From assembly GCA_030646715.1 (NCBI GenBank), contig JAUSLJ010000001.1, positions 1 through 64,000 on the forward strand: a DNA stretch of 64,000 nucleotides. Reading direction: 5' to 3'. The DNA comes from Agitococcus sp. GTDB taxonomy: Bacteria; Pseudomonadota; Gammaproteobacteria; Pseudomonadales; Moraxellaceae. Below, piece by piece: positions 42,106 through 64,000 of the stretch (positions within the stretch are counted from its first letter, which is position 1; every line of letters starts with the position of its first letter). Both the position numbers and the translations under genes were made by a program. Below the pieces are notes generated by a model. The model worked only from the letters and a program-made list of their open reading frames with translations, searched no databases and was not told the DNA's origin.

Positions 42106-45100
42106 TGCAATTACCTGCCTTATGTATTAAACGGCCAGTATTAGCAACAGTAATGAATTTGCTGATTGTCTTGGCGGGTTTGTTGGCTTTTGACCGATTA
42201 ACGGTGCGTGAATATCCTAATATTGATATTCCTACCGTGACTGTTGCCATTGATTATTCAGGGGCAAGTGCGGCTATTGTTGAATCAACTGTGACTAAAG
42301 TTTTAGAGGATTCATTGTCGGGTATTGAAGGGGTTGATTATTTATCGTCGATTAGCCGTTCAGGGCGTAGTCAAATTACTTTAGCGTTTAAACAAGGCCG
42401 TGAGATTGATAGTGCTACTTCCGATGTACGTGATCGTGTTTCGCGTGTTCGTGGGCGTTTGCCTGATAACGTTGATGAGCCTGTCATCACCAAAACGGAG
42501 GCCGATGCTCAACCGATTATTTGGTTGGCATTTTCTTCTACAAAACATACGCCGTTGCAAATTAATCAATTTGCCGATAAACAAGTCAAAAATCGCTTAC
42601 AAACATTAGCAGGTGTCGCTGATATTCGTATTTTTGGTGAGCGCAAACCCGCCATGCGAATTTGGCTCAATGCAGCAAAACTCGCCGCATTTAATTTAAC
42701 ACCACAAGATATTGAAGCCGTTTTACGCGCACAAAATGTCGAAATTCCGTCGGGTCGGATTGAAAGTTCTCAGCGTGAGTTTTCGGTATTAGTGGAAACA
42801 GATGTCAATACTCCTGAACAATTCGCCCAGTTAATTGTTCGTCAACAAGACGGTTTATTAATCCGTTTGGGTGATGTTGCGCGTGTCGAAATTGCTCCTG
42901 AAGATGTGCGTCGTATCGCCCGTTTTAATGGCTCGCCTGCAGTGGCATTGGGGGTGATAAAAACCTCAACGGCTAACCCTTTAGAAGTGTCGCAGGAAGT
43001 ACGCGCTGAGTTGCCGCGTATCGAAAAAAATCTGCCTGAAGGTATGCAAGTGCGTTTGGCTTTTGATTCCTCGGTGTTTATTCAAGAGTCCATTAACTCA
43101 GTACAACGCACGATTCTTGAGTCAGTAGTTCTCGTCGTCTTAGTGATTTTCTTCTTTTTACGCAATTTACGCGCAACACTAATACCTTTAGTCACGATTC
43201 CTGTGTCGATGATTGGCGCATTGATTTTTATGCAGTTATTTGGCTTTTCGATTAATACCTTGACCTTGTTGGCGATGGTATTAGCGATTGGTTTGGTGGT
43301 TGATGATGCCATTGTCGTCCTAGAAAACATCTATCGACATATTGAGGAAGGCAAAACACCGATGCAAGCGGCCATACAAGGCTCTAAGGAAATTGGTTTT
43401 GCCGTATTAGCGATGACCTTTACTTTAGCGGCCGTGTTTGCTCCGATTGCCTTTACCGAAGGGCGAACAGGGAAATTATTTGCCGAATTTGCGTTAACCT
43501 TAGCTTCGGCAGTGATTGTTTCAGGTTTTTGTGCTTTAACGTTATCGCCGATGATGAGCTCGAAGTTATTACAACCGCATCAAGGGCAAGGCAATGTCAT
43601 TTATCGGCTCATTGAGCGTGGTTTAGAGGCCTTAACGCGTGGCTATCAGGCGGTATTAGCTCGAATGTTGGCTCTCCGTTGGTTAGTGTTAATACTGGCT
43701 TTTGGCGCGATTGCCGCGATGTTGATGTTATTTCGCACCTTACCTTCAGAGTTATCGCCAACCGAAGACCGAGGGGTGATTGTGTCCATTGGTATTGGCC
43801 CTGAAGGTTCAACACCTGCCTATTTTGACCGTTATGCCAAGCAAGTCGAAGGGATCTATGCCAAGTTGCCAGAACTGTCCTCGACGTTTTTAATTATTGG
43901 TTTTCCTGACGAAACGAAATTTATTAGTTTTAATCGCTTTAAGCCGTGGGCGGAACGTCCGCGCAGTACGCAAGTGATAATGCCTAGTCTTATGCCGCAA
44001 TTGTCAAAAGTGCCAGGCGTAATGGCATTGGCGAGTTTGCCACCGTCATTAGGGCAGGGTACATCCAGTTCGCCTTTAGAGTTTGTCATTCAAACGACAG
44101 GCACGTATGGTGATTTGGGTAAAGTCATTGGCCAATTAATGGAGAAAATTTCTGAAAATCAAGGCATTATTAACCCTACGCCTGACTTAAAACTCAACAA
44201 GCCACAGCTCTCGTTAACGGTTGATCGAGATAAAGCGGCGTTGGTGAATGTCGGTGTTTCGGATGTAGGGAAAACATTAGAGACTTTATTGGGTAGCCGC
44301 AAAGTGACAACCTTTAAGCTGGATGGCGACCAATACGATGTCATTTTGCAGTTAGAAGACGACGGACGACGCACACCCGAGCAATTACAACAGATTTATG
44401 TGCGTAACAGCCAAGGCCAAATGTTGCCACTCTCAACGGTATTAACGATGAAGGAAACGGTCAGCCCTGCGGAGTTAAACCATTTCAACAAGTTACGCTC
44501 AGCAAAAATCACCGCCAGTTTAGCCGAAGGTTATGCTTTAGGTGATGCCGTGACGTTTATGCAAAAGTCGATGGAAGAAATTAACGATCCTGCCATGTCT
44601 TACGATTGGGGTGGGCAAACGCGTGAGTTTTTATCGTCGGGAAGCGCGTTGATGATGGCGTTTGTCTTGGCAGTGTTGTTTATCTATTTAGTGTTGGCGG
44701 CGCAGTTTGAAAGTTTCCGTGACCCATTGATTATCATTTTTTCTGTGCCTTTGGCGATGCTTGGCGCGGTGTTGGCGTTAAAGCTTACGCAAGGAACAAT
44801 CAATGTTTATAGTCAGATTGGTTTAATCACCTTAGTCGGTTTGATTACCAAGCACGGTATTTTATTAGTCGAGTTTGCCAATCAACTACAGGAAAAAGGC
44901 TATAGCAAATTAGAAGCTATTAAAGAGTCGGCAGCGTTACGCTTACGGCCTATTTTAATGACGACAGCCGCGATGGTGTTAGGGGCATTGCCCTTAGCAA
45001 TGGCGGTCGGGGCAGGTTCAGAAGTGCGTCATCCGATTGGCTGGGTAATCGTAGGTGGTATGACAATTGGCACGTTTTTTACCTTGTTTGTGGTGCCATG

Positions 45101-45149
45101 TGTTTATCTGTTGATGGGTAGAGTGCATACGCCTGTACAAGCAAAATAA
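42105..45149 (+). CDS. RND multidrug efflux transporter (HAE1 family)
   Basis: Proton-driven inner-membrane pump of 1014 residues. The N-terminus CIKRPVLATVMNLLIVLAGL is helix 1. The proton-relay helix LAMVLAIGLVVDDAIVVLEN is near residues 385-405, followed by REGRTGKLF-like TEGRTGKLFAEFALTLASA. Twelve membrane helices and two large periplasmic loops fit the family. The substrate cannot be told from sequence; heavy-metal (HME) signatures were not noticed. The TAATG overlap with the adaptor indicates coupled translation. Confidence 0.93.
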   Translation: MQLPALCIKRPVLATVMNLLIVLAGLLAFDRLTVREYPNIDIPTVTVAIDYSGASAAIVESTVTKVLEDSLSGIEGVDYLSSISRSGRSQITLAFKQGREIDSATSDVRDRVSRVRGRLPDNVDEPVITKTEADAQPIIWLAFSSTKHTPLQINQFADKQVKNRLQTLAGVADIRIFGERKPAMRIWLNAAKLAAFNLTPQDIEAVLRAQNVEIPSGRIESSQREFSVLVETDVNTPEQFAQLIVRQQDGLLIRLGDVARVEIAPEDVRRIARFNGSPAVALGVIKTSTANPLEVSQEVRAELPRIEKNLPEGMQVRLAFDSSVFIQESINSVQRTILESVVLVVLVIFFFLRNLRATLIPLVTIPVSMIGALIFMQLFGFSINTLTLLAMVLAIGLVVDDAIVVLENIYRHIEEGKTPMQAAIQGSKEIGFAVLAMTFTLAAVFAPIAFTEGRTGKLFAEFALTLASAVIVSGFCALTLSPMMSSKLLQPHQGQGNVIYRLIERGLEALTRGYQAVLARMLALRWLVLILAFGAIAAMLMLFRTLPSELSPTEDRGVIVSIGIGPEGSTPAYFDRYAKQVEGIYAKLPELSSTFLIIGFPDETKFISFNRFKPWAERPRSTQVIMPSLMPQLSKVPGVMALASLPPSLGQGTSSSPLEFVIQTTGTYGDLGKVIGQLMEKISENQGIINPTPDLKLNKPQLSLTVDRDKAALVNVGVSDVGKTLETLLGSRKVTTFKLDGDQYDVILQLEDDGRRTPEQLQQIYVRNSQGQMLPLSTVLTMKETVSPAELNHFNKLRSAKITASLAEGYALGDAVTFMQKSMEEINDPAMSYDWGGQTREFLSSGSALMMAFVLAVLFIYLVLAAQFESFRDPLIIIFSVPLAMLGAVLALKLTQGTINVYSQIGLITLVGLITKHGILLVEFANQLQEKGYSKLEAIKESAALRLRPILMTTAAMVLGALPLAMAVGAGSEVRHPIGWVIVGGMTIGTFFTLFVVPCVYLLMGRVHTPVQAK

Positions 45150-45156
45150 GTGATTT

Positions 45157-45213
45157 TGTAGGGGCGGTTTTAACCGCCATAAGTACTTATGGGCGAATAA
45201 ATTCGCCCCTACA
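45157..45213. repeat. 57-bp inverted repeat with TGTAGGGGCG ends
   Basis: TGTAGGGGCG and CGCCCCTACA are perfect inverted ends, and the inside holds GGCGGTTTTAACCGCC and GCGAATAAATTCGC, two further palindromes. It is a small dispersed-repeat type seen in many environmental bacteria, here just after the RND gene, where it might also act as a terminator. Confidence 0.8.
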
Positions 45214-45323
45214 GGCCGTCATAAAAGTGTCATTAAATTGCAGTATTTTGACGCAACATCATAATAATAAGGTTCCATGTGTCGCCCATCGTTATCCTCT
45301 CGCTTGCTTCGTTATTCTTCTGC

Positions 45324-45352
45324 TTGACAATCTCTCGTTTGCCTCTACTAAT
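45324..45352 (+). promoter_or_regulatory. Probable promoter of the SBP/TelA/VWA cluster
   Basis: TTGACA (45324-45329), a 17-bp spacer and ACTAAT (45347-45352), or TACTAA with 16 bp, about 50 bases before the first gene of the cluster. Confidence 0.55.
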
Positions 45353-45400
45353 AGCCCTTAAAAATCATGTTCATCAAAAAATAATTAGGAATACTCAGCC

Positions 45401-46516
45401 ATGCTGACACAAAAAATTATCGGGCCGAGTGTGGCGTTGGTTTTAGCGTTGGCTGTGGGCGGGGGTATTTGGTATTCCAATCACCAACTCCCTGCTCAAA
45501 GCGCAGTGAGTGGCATACAAGCAAAACAAATACTGCAATTAAAAGGCTTAATTGGCTCAGAAAAACAAGATTATTTTACCGATTCGCGTGTCGTTGCCCG
45601 TTTAAAAGCATTAGGTATGGCGGTGACGGTGGAAAAAAGTGGCTCACGTGCGATAGTGAGTCAATTTAACCCGAGCCAATATGATTTTGGTTTTCCTTCA
45701 GGCGCACCTGCGGGAGCGCAATTGCAAAAACTGGCAAAAGCGCGTAATACCTATGTGCCGTTTTATACGCCAATGGTGTTGGCCAGTTGGCTACCGATTG
45801 CGACGATTTTAGAAAAAAATGGCATGGTAAAAAAAGAAGGTGATAATTATTTTATCGTGGATTTTCCTGCTTTATTTGCTTTGATGAATGAGCAAAAACG
45901 TTGGAAAGAGTTGAGTCACAGTGAAGCGTTTGCCACCAATAAAGCGGTATTGGTGGCGTCTACCGATGTCAGAACCTCCAATAGTGGCGCGATGTATTTA
46001 GCCTTAGCGAGCTATTTAATCAACAATGAAAATATTGTCCAAAGCCAAGCCGATGTCGATAAGGTCTTGCCACAAGTCAGCCAATTATTTTTGCGTCAAG
46101 GTTTTCAGGAGTCGTCTTCGGCTGCACCGTTTGAGGATTATGTTGCTTTAGGGATGGGCAAAACACCGTTGCTGATGATTTATGAGTCGCAGTTAATTGA
46201 ATTTTGGCTAAAACATCCGCAACGTATTGCCGAAAATATGGTCATGCTCTATCCCAAACCGACAATTTTTTCCAAGCATATTTTTGTGCCATTTAATGCT
46301 AATGCCGAGCGTTTAGGTGAGGCGTTAAGCAATGACCCTGAATTGCAAAGTATTGCTCAAGAGTACGGTTTTAGAACCAATGGTGAGCATAAAAGTACCG
46401 AGCATTGGGCGAAACAAAGCATTATTGCGCCTGATAATTTAGTGGATGTGATAGACCCGCCGAGTTATGAGTGGTTAGAAAAAATGATTAGCGCGATTGA
46501 GGCAAAATTTCATTAA
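45401..46516 (+). CDS. Membrane-anchored substrate-binding-like protein
   Basis: Protein of 371 residues with an uncleaved-looking N-terminal helix (about residues 6-25, VALVLALAVGGGIWY) and a periplasmic domain resembling extracellular solute-binding proteins: QYDFGFPSGAPAG, VASTDVRTSNSGAMYLALAS and LLMIYESQLIEFW occupy the ligand-cleft positions. It is not next to any ABC permease or ATPase. It is followed 22 bases later by a TelA-family gene and then a second binding-protein-like gene fused to VWA. I infer ligand sensing rather than transport. The exact family is not certain. Confidence 0.7.
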   Translation: MLTQKIIGPSVALVLALAVGGGIWYSNHQLPAQSAVSGIQAKQILQLKGLIGSEKQDYFTDSRVVARLKALGMAVTVEKSGSRAIVSQFNPSQYDFGFPSGAPAGAQLQKLAKARNTYVPFYTPMVLASWLPIATILEKNGMVKKEGDNYFIVDFPALFALMNEQKRWKELSHSEAFATNKAVLVASTDVRTSNSGAMYLALASYLINNENIVQSQADVDKVLPQVSQLFLRQGFQESSSAAPFEDYVALGMGKTPLLMIYESQLIEFWLKHPQRIAENMVMLYPKPTIFSKHIFVPFNANAERLGEALSNDPELQSIAQEYGFRTNGEHKSTEHWAKQSIIAPDNLVDVIDPPSYEWLEKMISAIEAKFH

Positions 46517-46538
46517 GGGACATTAATAAGGAATCAGC

Positions 46539-47501
46539 ATGAATCAAGCCTCATCCGCCGAAAATACTCGCCCCGAAAACCTCAATCCGCAATTTGTGCT
46601 AACGGATGCTGAGCGGCAGATATTAGAGGCTCAAGCCAATGAGGTAATTGCGCAATTGCAACAATCATCGGATGCTTGGCAGCAAGTAGAGCGGGGCTTA
46701 CGGCAGTTGGCGGCACAAGAAATGAATGAAGCGGCGCAAATTACTTTATCGGTCGTCGATAAATCTTTAGCTCAAGCCAATACGTCGGTGGATGCGAGTG
46801 CGATAAAACAGCAACTGTCGCAGTTAGAACAACGTTTTCAGCAAATAGAGCCTCAGCAATTTCCCACACAAGCTAAGTTATTCGGTTTAATTCCCTTGCC
46901 GTCACCCTTATCGCGTTATTTTGCCCAGTATCAAGCGATGCAACCGCAGTTCAATCAATTATTGGCGGGCTTACAACACAGTCAAGATGCCTTATTGCGT
47001 GACAATGCCAGTCTTCAACAAGCGCGGCTTCGTTTGTGGGAGGTCATGCTCAAGCTCAATAAATATCAGTATTTAGCGGAATATTTACTTCAACAAACTG
47101 AAAGTATCGACAATCAGCCTCATGTTCAACAAACGATTGTGTCCTTAGTCAAACAAAAGCAGCATGATGTTTTGTTGCAATTATTGGCCAGTTATCAAAG
47201 TGTTTTAAGCTTTGAGTTAATGATGAAAAATAATCAACAGTTATTTGAGGTGCTTGAACGCGTCTCAACATCCACCCTAACAGTGCTACAAACGGCAATG
47301 ATAACAGCACAAACATTGTTAAAACAGCAATGGCTATTAACGCAAATTACCGCGTTACAACAGTCTAGTTCACGATTTTTGCAAGCGAATCAGCGGCTAT
47401 TGGCGCAAGATGAACCGAGCGCATGGTTATCGCTGCAACACAGTTTTCAGCAGTTGTATCACGATTTAGACATCAGGACTTACGCATCGCTCCGCGATTA
47501 G
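46539..47501 (+). CDS. telA: TelA-family toxic-anion-resistance protein, C-terminus altered by repeat insertion
   Basis: Cytoplasmic, almost wholly helical protein of 320 residues. FGLIPLPSPLSRYFAQYQAM (about 113-132), then LLRDNASLQQARLRLWEVM and TVLQTAMITAQTLLKQQWLL match the order of conserved blocks in TelA/KlaA/YceH proteins, which are tied to tellurite and other toxic-anion tolerance. Family members usually run tens of residues further. Here the last eight residues RTYASLRD and the TAG come from the dispersed repeat that starts at 47475, so the native end seems to have been replaced. Glutamine-rich (coiled-coil-like). Confidence 0.8.
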   Translation: MNQASSAENTRPENLNPQFVLTDAERQILEAQANEVIAQLQQSSDAWQQVERGLRQLAAQEMNEAAQITLSVVDKSLAQANTSVDASAIKQQLSQLEQRFQQIEPQQFPTQAKLFGLIPLPSPLSRYFAQYQAMQPQFNQLLAGLQHSQDALLRDNASLQQARLRLWEVMLKLNKYQYLAEYLLQQTESIDNQPHVQQTIVSLVKQKQHDVLLQLLASYQSVLSFELMMKNNQQLFEVLERVSTSTLTVLQTAMITAQTLLKQQWLLTQITALQQSSSRFLQANQRLLAQDEPSAWLSLQHSFQQLYHDLDIRTYASLRD

Positions 47502-59071: not shown

Positions 59072-59133
59072 AGAATTACGTGCTGGTACGAGAGTCGGAA
59101 TACAGAAATTTAATTAGTTATATGATTTGTATG

Positions 59134-59369: not shown

Positions 59370-60134
59370 TTATGTCTGACTTCGCAAATAGTCCTTTGCA
59401 CTCTCAATCCCCTTTCGGACTATGTCTGAAATAGACCAATTTTCATCAATATGTATTTCATTTGGAATGGCTATTATTCGAGATACCATATCTTCGGACA
59501 GAGCTGATACTTGCGCACAAACTTCAAGTGCCAGAATTACACTTTCGTCTGAGATTGTTCCGTCCGAATTTTTAAGTAAAGGCGACTCATTAATTGGACG
59601 TGGTCCACTGCTAAAAACCAGCTCAGAGTCAATTATTACAAAATCATGCTCTGGTGTATAAAAATATCCACATGGCTCAAGCGCACCAAAAATGTAAATT
59701 GCGATTTCACATCTTAGCAAATCACGAATATTGCCTATTTGAGAGCTAGATAATTTTTCAATGAAACGATTTGTGGGGATACCATTGCGGAGTGGGACAA
59801 GTGGACAGCCCAGAGAACAAGGCATAGCTTGATGTTCTTTCATATACCAATGCACAGCATGAACTTCACTTTCCGCTCTACCAAGCATTTTTGCGCTACG
59901 ACTGTCCAAACAGATAAATGATGAACTTTGAATAGACCAACCTAGCTCTTGTGCTATTCGCGCAAAAACAATTTCGCGATATGCACAGAACGACCCTCGC
60001 AATTTAGTCAGCCAGCGATTTCCTTGTTTGTCTGTGCCAATCCAAAAACCATTCATTGAGTCAGCGGGCTTCCAATCCCATTCCGCACAGTCAACGACGG
60101 CTGGGAGAGATGTCATTTTGGGGTGGGAAGACAT
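59370..60134 (-). CDS. Possible HipA-like kinase-fold protein
   Basis: Protein of 254 residues without a certain family. NRWLTKLRGSFCAYREIVFA (about 38-57) looks like the lysine strand and following helix of HipA-like or PI-kinase-fold proteins, and DFVIIDSELVFSSGPRP (about 163-179) could be the metal-binding acidic segment. The catalytic loop between them is not clear (EIAIYIFGALEPCGYF). The start is ATG 60134, eight bases after GAGG. It is AT-rich compared with neighbours and lies within the putative mobile element, so a cargo (toxin or defence) role is possible. Confidence 0.5.
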   Translation of the reverse strand: MSSHPKMTSLPAVVDCAEWDWKPADSMNGFWIGTDKQGNRWLTKLRGSFCAYREIVFARIAQELGWSIQSSSFICLDSRSAKMLGRAESEVHAVHWYMKEHQAMPCSLGCPLVPLRNGIPTNRFIEKLSSSQIGNIRDLLRCEIAIYIFGALEPCGYFYTPEHDFVIIDSELVFSSGPRPINESPLLKNSDGTISDESVILALEVCAQVSALSEDMVSRIIAIPNEIHIDENWSISDIVRKGIESAKDYLRSQT

Positions 60135-60351: not shown

Positions 60352-60570
60352 GTGGGAACGGTGGGAACAGTGGGAACATTGTTGTTATATATAGGGTTTT
60401 TCTGTTCCCACCTGTTCCCACCACTCTAAGTAGGTGGGAACACTTTGGTTATTTTTTGTTCTTTTTGTTCCCGCGGTGGGAACAGAGTGGGAACAAGGTG
60501 GGAACATTTTAATCTATTGATATATATAGATATTTAGTAGGTATTTATAGGTTGTTCCCACTGTTCCCAC
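60352..60570. repeat. Iteron array, probable replication origin of the element
   Basis: Twelve copies of GTGGGAAC lie in 219 bases. Forward copies start at 60352, 60361, 60370, 60434, 60476, 60487 and 60498; reverse copies (GTTCCCAC) start at 60404, 60414, 60467 (one mismatch), 60554 and 60563. Local spacing is 9-11 bases, about one helical turn. Two modules have the same design: three forward copies, an AT-rich stretch, two reverse copies (60352-60421 and 60476-60570). The AT-rich parts contain TTATATATAGG and GATATATATAGAT. This fits initiator-binding iterons around unwinding elements, next to a P4-alpha-like gene. Confidence 0.75.
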
Positions 60571-60695: not shown

Positions 60696-63566
60696 TTAAT
60701 CACCGTCAAATATACGACTACCTAGTAAGGCGTAAATACGAATATTCCCTTCTGGTAATCGCTTTCTCATTTGAGCGTGTTTACCTTCGCCAGTCTTGAG
60801 CCAACCAGCCTCCCTAAGTACTTTGATGGCAAATTCTGTGTCATAGCCTGTAATAATCTCCTTGAACGCTTCAGGCAGGCAATAAAACAAAATGCCGTCG
60901 CTGTCAGGCTCACGGTAGCCGACACGGTTCGTGGTTCTAACGGTGGTATCAGCCTTCAAGCACAAGTCAGAAAAACGACTTTCTCCAAATTGCTCTAAAA
61001 AGGCTTTCACTTGCCGTAACAGGTATTCTTTTTCCATGTTGGCGACACTACCACGCGCTTTCAGCCATGCCTCAAAGCAGATTTTAACCGCTTGCTTGGC
61101 TTCCCCTTGTGACCAGCCAGTAATGCTGTATTGACTAGCTAACTCGCCCGCAATGGCTACCAGTGCAAAGCGTGAGGCCACACGCAACACTTGGCTACCC
61201 GCACCATCAGGCACAATCTCTGCCATAAACGCTTGGCGTAAGGTTTTAAGCTGTTCGCCTAGTTGATGTGCCTGTGGGGTGATGGCCATTAAAAACGCAT
61301 GGCCAGCCGTGCCGTATTGGTCTAGGGTGTGCTGGTTCAGATGTTCTACTAAGTCTTTGCCTGTGGTGAACTGGTGCAAGTGTTCTAGCAAGCCATTGCC
61401 TGATTCAGTGTCGGCGGGAATATCGACTAGGCGAAGTTCTTGACCTGCGCGGATCTTACGTCCACCTGATAGCATATGCTGGCTAAGACTCATTTCTCCC
61501 GATGATAAAAATAACAGCCCCCATGTCAGTATTTTGCGTGGCATAACCGATTTAGAGGCGCGGCTTTTACCTTGACCATTGGCCAGCATATACACGGTTT
61601 CGCCAATGTCTTTGGCCTCGGCTTGGCCTATTTCGTCTAGGACTAATAAACCATCGTTATACATGGCGGCTGTGGCTTCTAGGCCGTTAATCGTGGCACG
61701 CCAGCTTTGTTTATAGTCTCTGTTGCCCCATACCGAACAGGCCGCGTGTTGAGCCGTGCTTTTGCCTAGACTAGAGTCACCGCGTAAATGAAAACCGCCT
61801 GATTCATCGCCTATCAGTTTTAGCAATGTGCCTGCAAAGGCAGTACATACTGAAAATACTAGGCGCGAATTGCCGACACACAAGGCCGCTATATGCTTAC
61901 GCCAAGCCTCTAATGTCCCTTTCTGCTTGTAACCATGCGGCGTATGGCTTTCACTCTGGTAAACCACAGTGTTGGCGTGTTTGCCATAGGTTTGATCGGG
62001 GGTGACATATACAAGGTCTTTTTCGTGTTCTTGCCAGCCCGTTTTTTCGACACACAACACGCGGTCATTGGTGTGCTGAGTTTGAATGTATTGGGCTAAC
62101 AAGGTTCTTGCACTTTGATTCGGTGAGATAAACAGGCCGCCACTCATCAAGTAACCGCGCACTTCTGAGCCATCACCTTTGAACATTTCGGCAGGCATTG
62201 CCCAACGATGCTTATGGTTGTCACGGTCTAGCCATTCCAGTAAATAACCGTGGCCACGGTGATCGGCATTACGGGTCAATGCTAAAATTTTCAAGACACC
62301 ACATATATGCTGTGGGTTGCGCTGGTTGCCTTCTTTGTCCAAACCAACGTAGTACACACCGCGTCTAGTGGTGACAGTATTAGCATCATCCAAATAAAAA
62401 TATGTACCTTTAGTTTCTGTCGCCTCTGTCGTTGCTGCCTTTTCTAATGCTGCGTTAACGGTATCAATCGCCGTTTGCGAAACACTTTCACTTGTTGCTG
62501 GCTCTGCTATACTTGGTGCGTCAATTCTAAGGGCTGTGCTTTCTGTGGTGGGGAGCACGGTCTTTTCCTTTTCAGGCGGTCGTGCTTGTTCTATCGTGGT
62601 ATTCACTGTTGTTAATCCTTCTGTTCGTGCCAAGTCGTTAAAGTCTTTTAAACCCTCGCCTGTACCTGTAAATATTGGATAACTGACTACGCCATTAACG
62701 GCTAAAGCGGCTTTGTGGGCTGCTTCTAGTCCTGTGTTTTTTGGTTTTTCGTGGTCGTTATCGGCACATATAATTAGTGGTGTAGTTGGGTAGGCTGTTC
62801 GTAAGGCAAGGCTGACAGCTAGCAGGTTAGACGCATCAAAGGCAACCGCTACGCTGTAACCTGTGGCTTGGTGAAGGCTTGCGCCTGTGGCGTAACCTTC
62901 ACACACTAAAATACATTCACTATTCCCCGCTATTAGGTAGTAATGGCCTTGTTTATTGCCATTGGGTAAAAAGCGTTTTTCACCTGTAGGGCGAATAAAT
63001 TGCAAGGTATAAATCTTGCCAGTGTTATCGGTGACAGGAATCACTAAGCAGTCTTGGCACGCCATACCACTTATGACTAAATCACCGCTATAGCATCGTA
63101 GGTTAAACGCTTTAACGCCTTTGTTTTGTAGGTAAGGATGGCTGTCGTTTATGTAATGACAGCCTTGCCATAAGCCCTGTGCCGTAAACGCGGTTCGTTC
63201 ATAACGTAAGGCTTTTTCCTGTTCGGCTTGGGAAATATCCGCTTGCTGTTGTTGCTCACGTTCGGCTCGTTGTTGTGGGCTTATAAGTTGCGGTTTATGA
63301 TTTTTATCGTAGGTAAAGCCATGCTTTTTAGCGTAATAAAAAACTGAACCTAGCTTGTTTTTGCCAATTTGTAGCGATTGCCATACGGCTTTAGCATCAC
63401 TCATTTGGTAAGTGTCGGCTGTTTCGCTCCAGTCCGTCCATACGCTAAAACCTGTGTCACCAAGCTCTGTTTTTAGGGCATTACCAATTTTTAACCATAG
63501 TTCACGGTCATTGGCGGGAATGAAGGTAAGGGCACTACGGACTAACTCGGTATTGTCGATAGTCAT
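60696..63566 (-). CDS. P4-alpha-like replication protein: primase (PriCT-2, Toprim) and DUF927 helicase
   Basis: Protein of 956 residues. The N-terminus (about 7-80, FIPANDRELWLKIGNALKTE) is PriCT-2-like. A Toprim fold follows with VCEGYATGASL (near 219) and ICADNDHEK (near 266). A low-complexity Thr/Glu linker occupies about 325-385. A DUF927 ATPase/helicase has Walker A GDSSLGKST (near 594) and Walker B LLVLDEIGQ. The C-terminus (about 860-956) looks like a winged-helix DNA-binding part. This order is that of phage P4 alpha protein, which primes, unwinds and recognises origin repeats. Start ATG 63566 with AGGAGG eight bases upstream. The iteron array lies just past its 3' end. Confidence 0.87.
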   Translation of the reverse strand: MTIDNTELVRSALTFIPANDRELWLKIGNALKTELGDTGFSVWTDWSETADTYQMSDAKAVWQSLQIGKNKLGSVFYYAKKHGFTYDKNHKPQLISPQQRAEREQQQQADISQAEQEKALRYERTAFTAQGLWQGCHYINDSHPYLQNKGVKAFNLRCYSGDLVISGMACQDCLVIPVTDNTGKIYTLQFIRPTGEKRFLPNGNKQGHYYLIAGNSECILVCEGYATGASLHQATGYSVAVAFDASNLLAVSLALRTAYPTTPLIICADNDHEKPKNTGLEAAHKAALAVNGVVSYPIFTGTGEGLKDFNDLARTEGLTTVNTTIEQARPPEKEKTVLPTTESTALRIDAPSIAEPATSESVSQTAIDTVNAALEKAATTEATETKGTYFYLDDANTVTTRRGVYYVGLDKEGNQRNPQHICGVLKILALTRNADHRGHGYLLEWLDRDNHKHRWAMPAEMFKGDGSEVRGYLMSGGLFISPNQSARTLLAQYIQTQHTNDRVLCVEKTGWQEHEKDLVYVTPDQTYGKHANTVVYQSESHTPHGYKQKGTLEAWRKHIAALCVGNSRLVFSVCTAFAGTLLKLIGDESGGFHLRGDSSLGKSTAQHAACSVWGNRDYKQSWRATINGLEATAAMYNDGLLVLDEIGQAEAKDIGETVYMLANGQGKSRASKSVMPRKILTWGLLFLSSGEMSLSQHMLSGGRKIRAGQELRLVDIPADTESGNGLLEHLHQFTTGKDLVEHLNQHTLDQYGTAGHAFLMAITPQAHQLGEQLKTLRQAFMAEIVPDGAGSQVLRVASRFALVAIAGELASQYSITGWSQGEAKQAVKICFEAWLKARGSVANMEKEYLLRQVKAFLEQFGESRFSDLCLKADTTVRTTNRVGYREPDSDGILFYCLPEAFKEIITGYDTEFAIKVLREAGWLKTGEGKHAQMRKRLPEGNIRIYALLGSRIFDGD

Positions 63567-63568
63567 GG

Positions 63569-64000
63569 TTAAGCCTCCTTGTTATGACTAAGGGCTTGGC
63601 GTTTAGCCGCCTCTTTTTTAAAGTCGATAAGATTGGAGGGCTTGGGTGGTGCTTCCAGTTCCTTAACACGCGCTTTCGCCGCTTCAAGCGCATCTTTCGT
63701 CTGTAAAAAGTGCGTTTTCCAGATATATAAATTGCCTAATTCACCTGCGGACATTTCAAAATTGGGTACATTGTGACAATACAAGTGGCCGTCACGGAAA
63801 AAGACTTTATAGCGGCCAAAGTCTTTGTCTGGAATGTAGCCAAAAATCTTCATTTGCAAATAAACCAGCTCGTGTATTTTGAGTGGCCGTTCATCTTGGC
63901 AAATTCTTACTGCTGTTTTAGGCGAGATGTCTAGCATTTCTGCCAGTTCTTGATTCGAAAGGGGAAAGTAAGTCGTTTTATGGAAGGGGTCGGGCAGTTT
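63569..64000 (-). CDS. Phage-type HTH protein with DUF3653-like domain (5' end beyond window)
   Basis: The frame is open to the window edge, so the true start lies beyond base 64000. Visible are a helix-turn-helix (LSNQELAEMLDISPKTAVRI), then FGYIPDKDFGRYKVFFRDGH and MSAGELGNLYIWK, which resemble the phage DUF3653 domain, and a coiled-coil tail. An internal ATG at 63937 would cut the HTH and is not the start. It is two bases upstream of the primase/helicase start, so they are co-translated. Probably a regulator of the element. Confidence 0.72.
   Translation of the reverse strand, partial: KLPDPFHKTTYFPLSNQELAEMLDISPKTAVRICQDERPLKIHELVYLQMKIFGYIPDKDFGRYKVFFRDGHLYCHNVPNFEMSAGELGNLYIWKTHFLQTKDALEAAKARVKELEAPPKPSNLIDFKKEAAKRQALSHNKEA

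Follow-up and report, generated by a model that had tools for sequence, protein, structure and literature searches.

What is the function of a 219-bp stretch of DNA that is packed with copies of one short word, GTGGGAAC, and lies beside a primase-helicase gene? The window, i.e., the whole 64,000-nucleotide stretch that was analysed, which opens a contig of 155.6 kb, contains such a stretch at 60352-60570. Our preferred answer, to which we give a probability of about 0.86, is that an integrated satellite-like element of ~9.5 kb has its replication origin in this array.

The Repeat Array

The array consists of 11 exact copies of GTGGGAAC (seven forward, four reverse) and a degenerate reverse copy, GCGGGAAC, one mismatch away, with start-to-start spacings of 9-11 bp within runs. 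When the degenerate copy is counted, the order of orientations is +++ -- + - +++ --, and the array divides into two modules joined by a pair of linker copies:

60352..60421, no strand: iteron module 1, with GTGGGAAC at 60352+, 60361+, 60370+, 60404- and 60414-
60434..60474, no strand: linker copies, exact at 60434+ and degenerate (GCGGGAAC) at 60467-, in convergent orientation 33 bp apart
60476..60570, no strand: iteron module 2, with GTGGGAAC at 60476+, 60487+, 60498+, 60554- and 60563-

In each module three forward copies face two reverse copies across a start-to-start gap of 34 bp (module 1) or 56 bp (module 2), and the spacers so enclosed are 26 bp of 77% AT and 48 bp of 83% AT, respectively, in an element that is 57% AT overall. 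The count, positions, spacing and two-module layout described in an earlier, sequence-only reading of this DNA were thus all reproduced, the fifth reverse copy being the mismatched one.

That the array is a functionless product of chance or of low-complexity repeat expansion is scarcely credible. The best 7-mer chain numbered 11 copies in the array, 200 rounds of dinucleotide shuffling of the 700 bp around it never gave more than three, and the word, its place and its geometry recurred in unrelated contigs (see below); together, these results refuted a chance expansion. Words of 8 bp do recur in long sequences, and the 37 matches with at most one mismatch in the window equalled the chance expectation. 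Exact copies of GTGGGAAC in the rest of the genome were all isolated, and a paired-pattern search of the 4.2-Mb genome found no second cluster.

The Adjacent Primase-Helicase

The gene whose 3' end faces the array was characterised by Pfam, phmmer, a structure model and Foldseek/VIA:

60696..63566, minus strand: primase-helicase initiator, 956 aa

Its stop codon is ~126 bp from the array edge. The protein has a PriCT_2 domain (residues 10-79), a Toprim domain (219-317) and a DUF927 helicase domain (400-673; Pfam E 2e-89), followed by a predicted C-terminal winged helix. Its closest solved relatives in sequence (phmmer) were the Rep protein of SaPIbov1 (8tch) and the Cch protein of SCCmec (5dgk), and residues 396-956, modelled with AlphaFold2 (mean pLDDT 92), matched the same two proteins, with Z 29.8 over 476 residues at 4.3 A for Cch and Z 27.0 over 455 residues at 7.2 A for SaPIbov1 Rep. 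These matches spanned the full model (residues 1-559/561), including the C-terminal domain, which is predicted as H-H-beta-beta; the next-ranked matches were MCM proteins at Z 13. The NCBIfam Cch1 model gave a partial match of 51.8 bits, far under its equivalog cut-off of 700 bits. Judged by sequence and predicted fold, the motor of the initiator is a SaPI-Rep/Cch-type helicase with a putative DNA-binding domain at its C-terminus.

The sequence-only reading had called this protein P4-alpha-like, a label that did not survive for the helicase. P4 alpha carries a Zn ribbon, Toprim, D5_N, DUF5906 and Pox_D5, whereas the window's protein has DUF927, like SaPIbov1 Rep and Cch, and BLASTP aligned the initiator with P4 alpha mainly over the Toprim part.

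The Element Around the Array

The element occupies positions 59,075-68,582 of the contig, in the order att, ORF254, array, primase-helicase, regulators, alpA, further genes, integrase and tRNA-Leu, and its integrase, alpA, initiator and longer ORFs all run in the same direction. In contig coordinates, its features are as follows (those that start after position 64,000 lie beyond the window):

59075..59101, no strand: attL, a copy of the 3' end of tRNA-Leu(CAA), one base shorter than attR
59370..60134, minus strand: ORF254, 254 aa, between array and attL, with a weak PHROG match only; runs the same way as the initiator gene
63569..64000 and on to ~64366, minus strand: small gene upstream of the initiator, in the same operon direction, with weak HTH matches
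64676-64903: alpA
67171-68400: tyrosine integrase
68555-68582: attR, partner of attL
68564-68650: tRNA-Leu(CAA), adjoining the integrase

The att pair was also detected by blastn, and the AlpA match had an E of 2e-18, a value obtained with a hand-read sequence slightly different from the correct translation of the gene. The integrase, alpA and the att repeat at tRNA-Leu support the earlier proposal of an integrated satellite-like element, for which a satellite life style and dependence on a helper would be expected.

The features in common with PICIs are an integrase, an AlpA-type regulator and a primase-helicase in one direction, with att repeats at the bounds. Among the other ORFs of the element there was no match to packaging or interference families (terS, capsid redirection), PerC and capsid-type genes were not found in it, and PICI membership of the element as a whole is incomplete. 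Its cargo ORFs had no match among defence-gene models. No near-identical copies of the element were found in phage or plasmid records, and a scan of genome contigs with the initiator protein alone returned one distant relative only.

Just past the window, ~12 copies of a different repeat, TGCTTATAGGC/TGCTTATAAGCA (also given as the word TGCTTATA), lie upstream of alpA at contig positions 64960-65451 (8961-9452 of locus L002), with a partial superperiod of 36 bp. They are possibly operators for the regulators or a second cis site.

Comparison with Known Origins

Precedents for an origin in this position exist in both SaPIs and Gram-negative PICIs. The C-terminal domain of SaPI Rep recognises iterons directly 3' of rep, apparently as two hexamers (PMC7581432), and the origins of Gram-negative PICIs lie 3' of pri-rep and always have two iteron sets flanking AT-rich DNA, with the pri-rep-ori of EcCICFT073 working as a replicon and supporting plasmid maintenance (PMC6092414). 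At the window's locus the iterons likewise follow immediately 3' of the initiator gene, two iteron sets enclose AT-rich DNA not once but twice, and the initiator pairs a helicase of the SaPI-Rep/Cch type with a C-terminal domain. By their sequences and the modelled fold, array and initiator very probably form a SaPI/PICI-type rep-ori replicon, i.e., an origin of an already known kind.

The likeness is not complete for any one system. SaPIbov1 shares the DUF927-type helicase with its C-terminal domain, the array directly 3' and the two sets around AT-rich DNA; unlike there, the helicase here is fused to a Toprim/PriCT_2 primase, the iteron word differs, there are two tandem modules, and the element is Gram-negative and has int and alpA pointing the same way. 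The closest solved fold is that of SCCmec Cch, which is not fused to a primase. EcCICFT073 has the same order of int, alpA, pri-rep and ori in one direction, with the array 3' of pri-rep, and the CFT073 sequence 3' of the PICI primase gene has many GGTAGACA/TGTCTACC units, of which GGTAGACA is ACA-ended. However, the annotation of its pri-rep goes no further than a DNA primase family protein, and its first long AT-rich spacer lies between divergent iterons, whereas the window's lies between convergent ones.

P4, whose features were read from its sequence record, offers a different precedent. Its alpha protein is also a Toprim primase-helicase, and its crr also sits just 3' of alpha, in two modules of 120 bp, while its ori lies upstream of orf88/Vis; its iteron, GGTGAACA, resembles GGTGGGAACA. 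By analogy, the window's array could be a crr-like auxiliary or copy-control site with the true origin elsewhere, e.g., at the TGCTTATAGGC/TGCTTATAAGCA repeats, whose place upstream of alpA matches that of P4 ori. We consider this unlikely: P4 uses one word at both of its sites, but the alpA-upstream word is different, largely palindromic and accompanied by no GTGGGAAC, and SaPI Rep, which belongs to the best-matching group of initiators, has its origin in the downstream array. The element does not belong to the P4 family, by its type of helicase and by its iterons: P4 has two separate iteron sites (ori and crr), and the window's element has one cluster of GTGGGAAC. A P4-type pair of ori and crr was likewise rejected, there being no second GTGGGAAC site in the genome; the array itself may combine an origin with a copy-control region, an alternative offered in the sequence-only reading.

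If the array is the origin, its use can be pictured as follows. The integrase would excise the element, with AlpA acting as activator or excisionase, and the primase-helicase would bind the GTGGGAAC iterons through its C-terminal winged helix. The oppositely oriented sets flanking each AT-rich stretch may then position a pair of hexamers head to head; the AT-rich spacer would melt and be unwound by the DUF927 (Cch/SaPI-Rep) motor, and the Toprim/PriCT_2 part would prime replication. The locus would then provide a compact, complete pair of origin and initiator from a Gram-negative satellite-like element, in which a Toprim/PriCT_2 primase is fused to a SaPI-Rep/Cch-type helicase.

Arrays Beside Related Genes

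If the array belongs to the adjacent gene, homologues elsewhere should have arrays of their own. Among 37 loci with DUF927 homologues, 22 had an array 3' of the gene, defined as one 7-mer occurring five or more times between -300 and +600 relative to the stop codon, compared with 10 of 408 control windows drawn from the same 37 loci and none of 740 shuffles; in an independent set of viral loci the figures were 18 of 39 and, for the controls, 10 of 357. The remaining 15 of the 37 were without an array by this simple 7-mer test, some of them having a diverged or displaced array and some none. The words varied (GGGAACA, GGACAC, TGGGACA, GGGGACA, CGTGACA, GGTGACA, TGGAACA, GGTTACA, GGTAACA, TGTAACA and others), the majority of them ending in ACA. 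This comparative evidence that the array belongs to the adjacent primase-helicase lends support to the origin proposed in the sequence-only reading. Since other loci also had arrays of 10-14 copies and mirror modules in duplicate, e.g., +++---+++--- at L128, the doubled array of the window is not unique.

Some individual loci deserve mention. The same genome has a second DUF927 primase-helicase (G000:C6 ~44001-47126) with its own array, which overlaps the 3' end of the ORF and has a different word, CTGTACA/CTGTAACA. One E. coli "plasmid" (NZ_CP148430.1), circular and 12.2 kb long, with an integrase, PerC, a Toprim-DUF927 gene and a 3' array, resembles a PICI-type circle that was excised and then deposited under the name of a plasmid. 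The start of a relative's contig (G645:C14 1-114) has a tandem run of GTGGGAACA with 25 paired-pattern matches, unlike the spaced arrays.

The word GTGGGAAC itself was followed in viral contigs by a scan for GTGGGAACNGTGGGAAC and a close variant, which produced 124 loci, the window's included, 64 of them with multi-copy arrays (at least four copies in 400 bp). Arrays common away from such genes would have told against the earlier proposal, but 48 of the 64 lay directly 3' of primase-helicases (reversed-word control, 1 of 17), and the proposal was not refuted. A further four were on the 5' side of primase-helicases, and of those with no detected helicase some lay at the end of a contig or next to a Toprim gene. 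In one IMG/VR contig (L206), int, AlpA, a Toprim-DUF927 gene and a GTGGGAAC array of 11 copies are ordered as at the window's locus. The suggestion of an undescribed iteron had to be dropped, as the same word is present in scores of contigs. Because the partners of the 48 arrays comprised 25 DUF927, 22 VapE-like and one P4-alpha-like protein, GTGGGAAC is neither rare nor limited to one helicase family.

The VapE-like primase-helicases beside GTGGGAAC include those of L211, L224, L279, L290, L296, L301, L311 and others, and the model of the L311 protein was structurally closest to PriRep1 (7pds). The DUF927 and VapE models both end in a helix-helix-hairpin domain, which does not by itself prove a common origin, and profile-profile alignment of the two C-terminal domains gave no significant match.

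Spacing and Possible Exchange of the Iteron Word

Spacings were compared across 37 distinct arrays, including the window's and de-duplicated by identical spacing only. Same-direction neighbours were mostly 8-12 bp apart (113 of 140), convergent neighbours fell at 32-35, 42-47 or 50-57 bp (39 of 47) and divergent ones at 18-23 or 28-30 bp (30 of 57). The convergent distances formed a ladder of ~11 bp (R 0.63, with 0 of 2000 uniform draws as high), a statistic that is indicative only, the sequences being related. The window's convergent distances of 34, 33 and 56 bp and its divergent distance of 20 bp obey the rule, and the 9 bp between divergent neighbours at the degenerate copy break it; P4 ori, with a convergent pair 22 bp and a divergent pair 43 bp apart, is the reverse. 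The spacing suggests protein on one face of the DNA in opposed sets, which would fit a pair of hexamers placed head to head.

Iterons commonly have a second role in the regulation of initiator genes, and the window's array is located between the initiator and ORF254, so the repeats might be autoregulatory operators for the replication genes or ORF254 and no origin at all. This is very improbable: the initiator operon has the array at its 3' end and not on its promoter side, as was the case for 48 of the 52 gene-linked viral arrays, and AT-rich spacers and a conserved helical ladder of spacings suit an origin better than operators.

For the origin reading, the comparative set bears on the choice of origin by self-loading satellite initiators and, through it, on which satellites can coexist or cross-replicate. 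Tentatively, and with the odds somewhat against it, several satellite helicase families may share one origin grammar (runs at 9-11 bp, a helical-turn ladder of convergent gaps and an ACA-ended word of 7-9 bp) in which the word is exchangeable. The idea of an exchangeable word stems from the sharing of GTGGGAAC by DUF927 and VapE-type partners, and from three loci (L192, L193 and L203) whose proteins are 87-91% identical and whose arrays correspond closely, but whose words differ in concert across the array (GTGGGAACA, GTGGCTACA and GTGGTTACA). Similarity of C-terminal domains and similarity of iterons were weakly correlated overall (Spearman 0.26, from non-independent pairs). If the idea is true, a readable initiator-iteron specificity code would set which satellites are incompatible. 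The C-terminal differences among the three proteins cluster at QRKARLPGMSGSVWAY / QRQVRLPGMGKGMRVY / QRLSRLPGMGKAVRVY, with changes in the C-terminal domain around QRxxRLPGM and the wing, and would confine the specificity residues to a small part of that domain.
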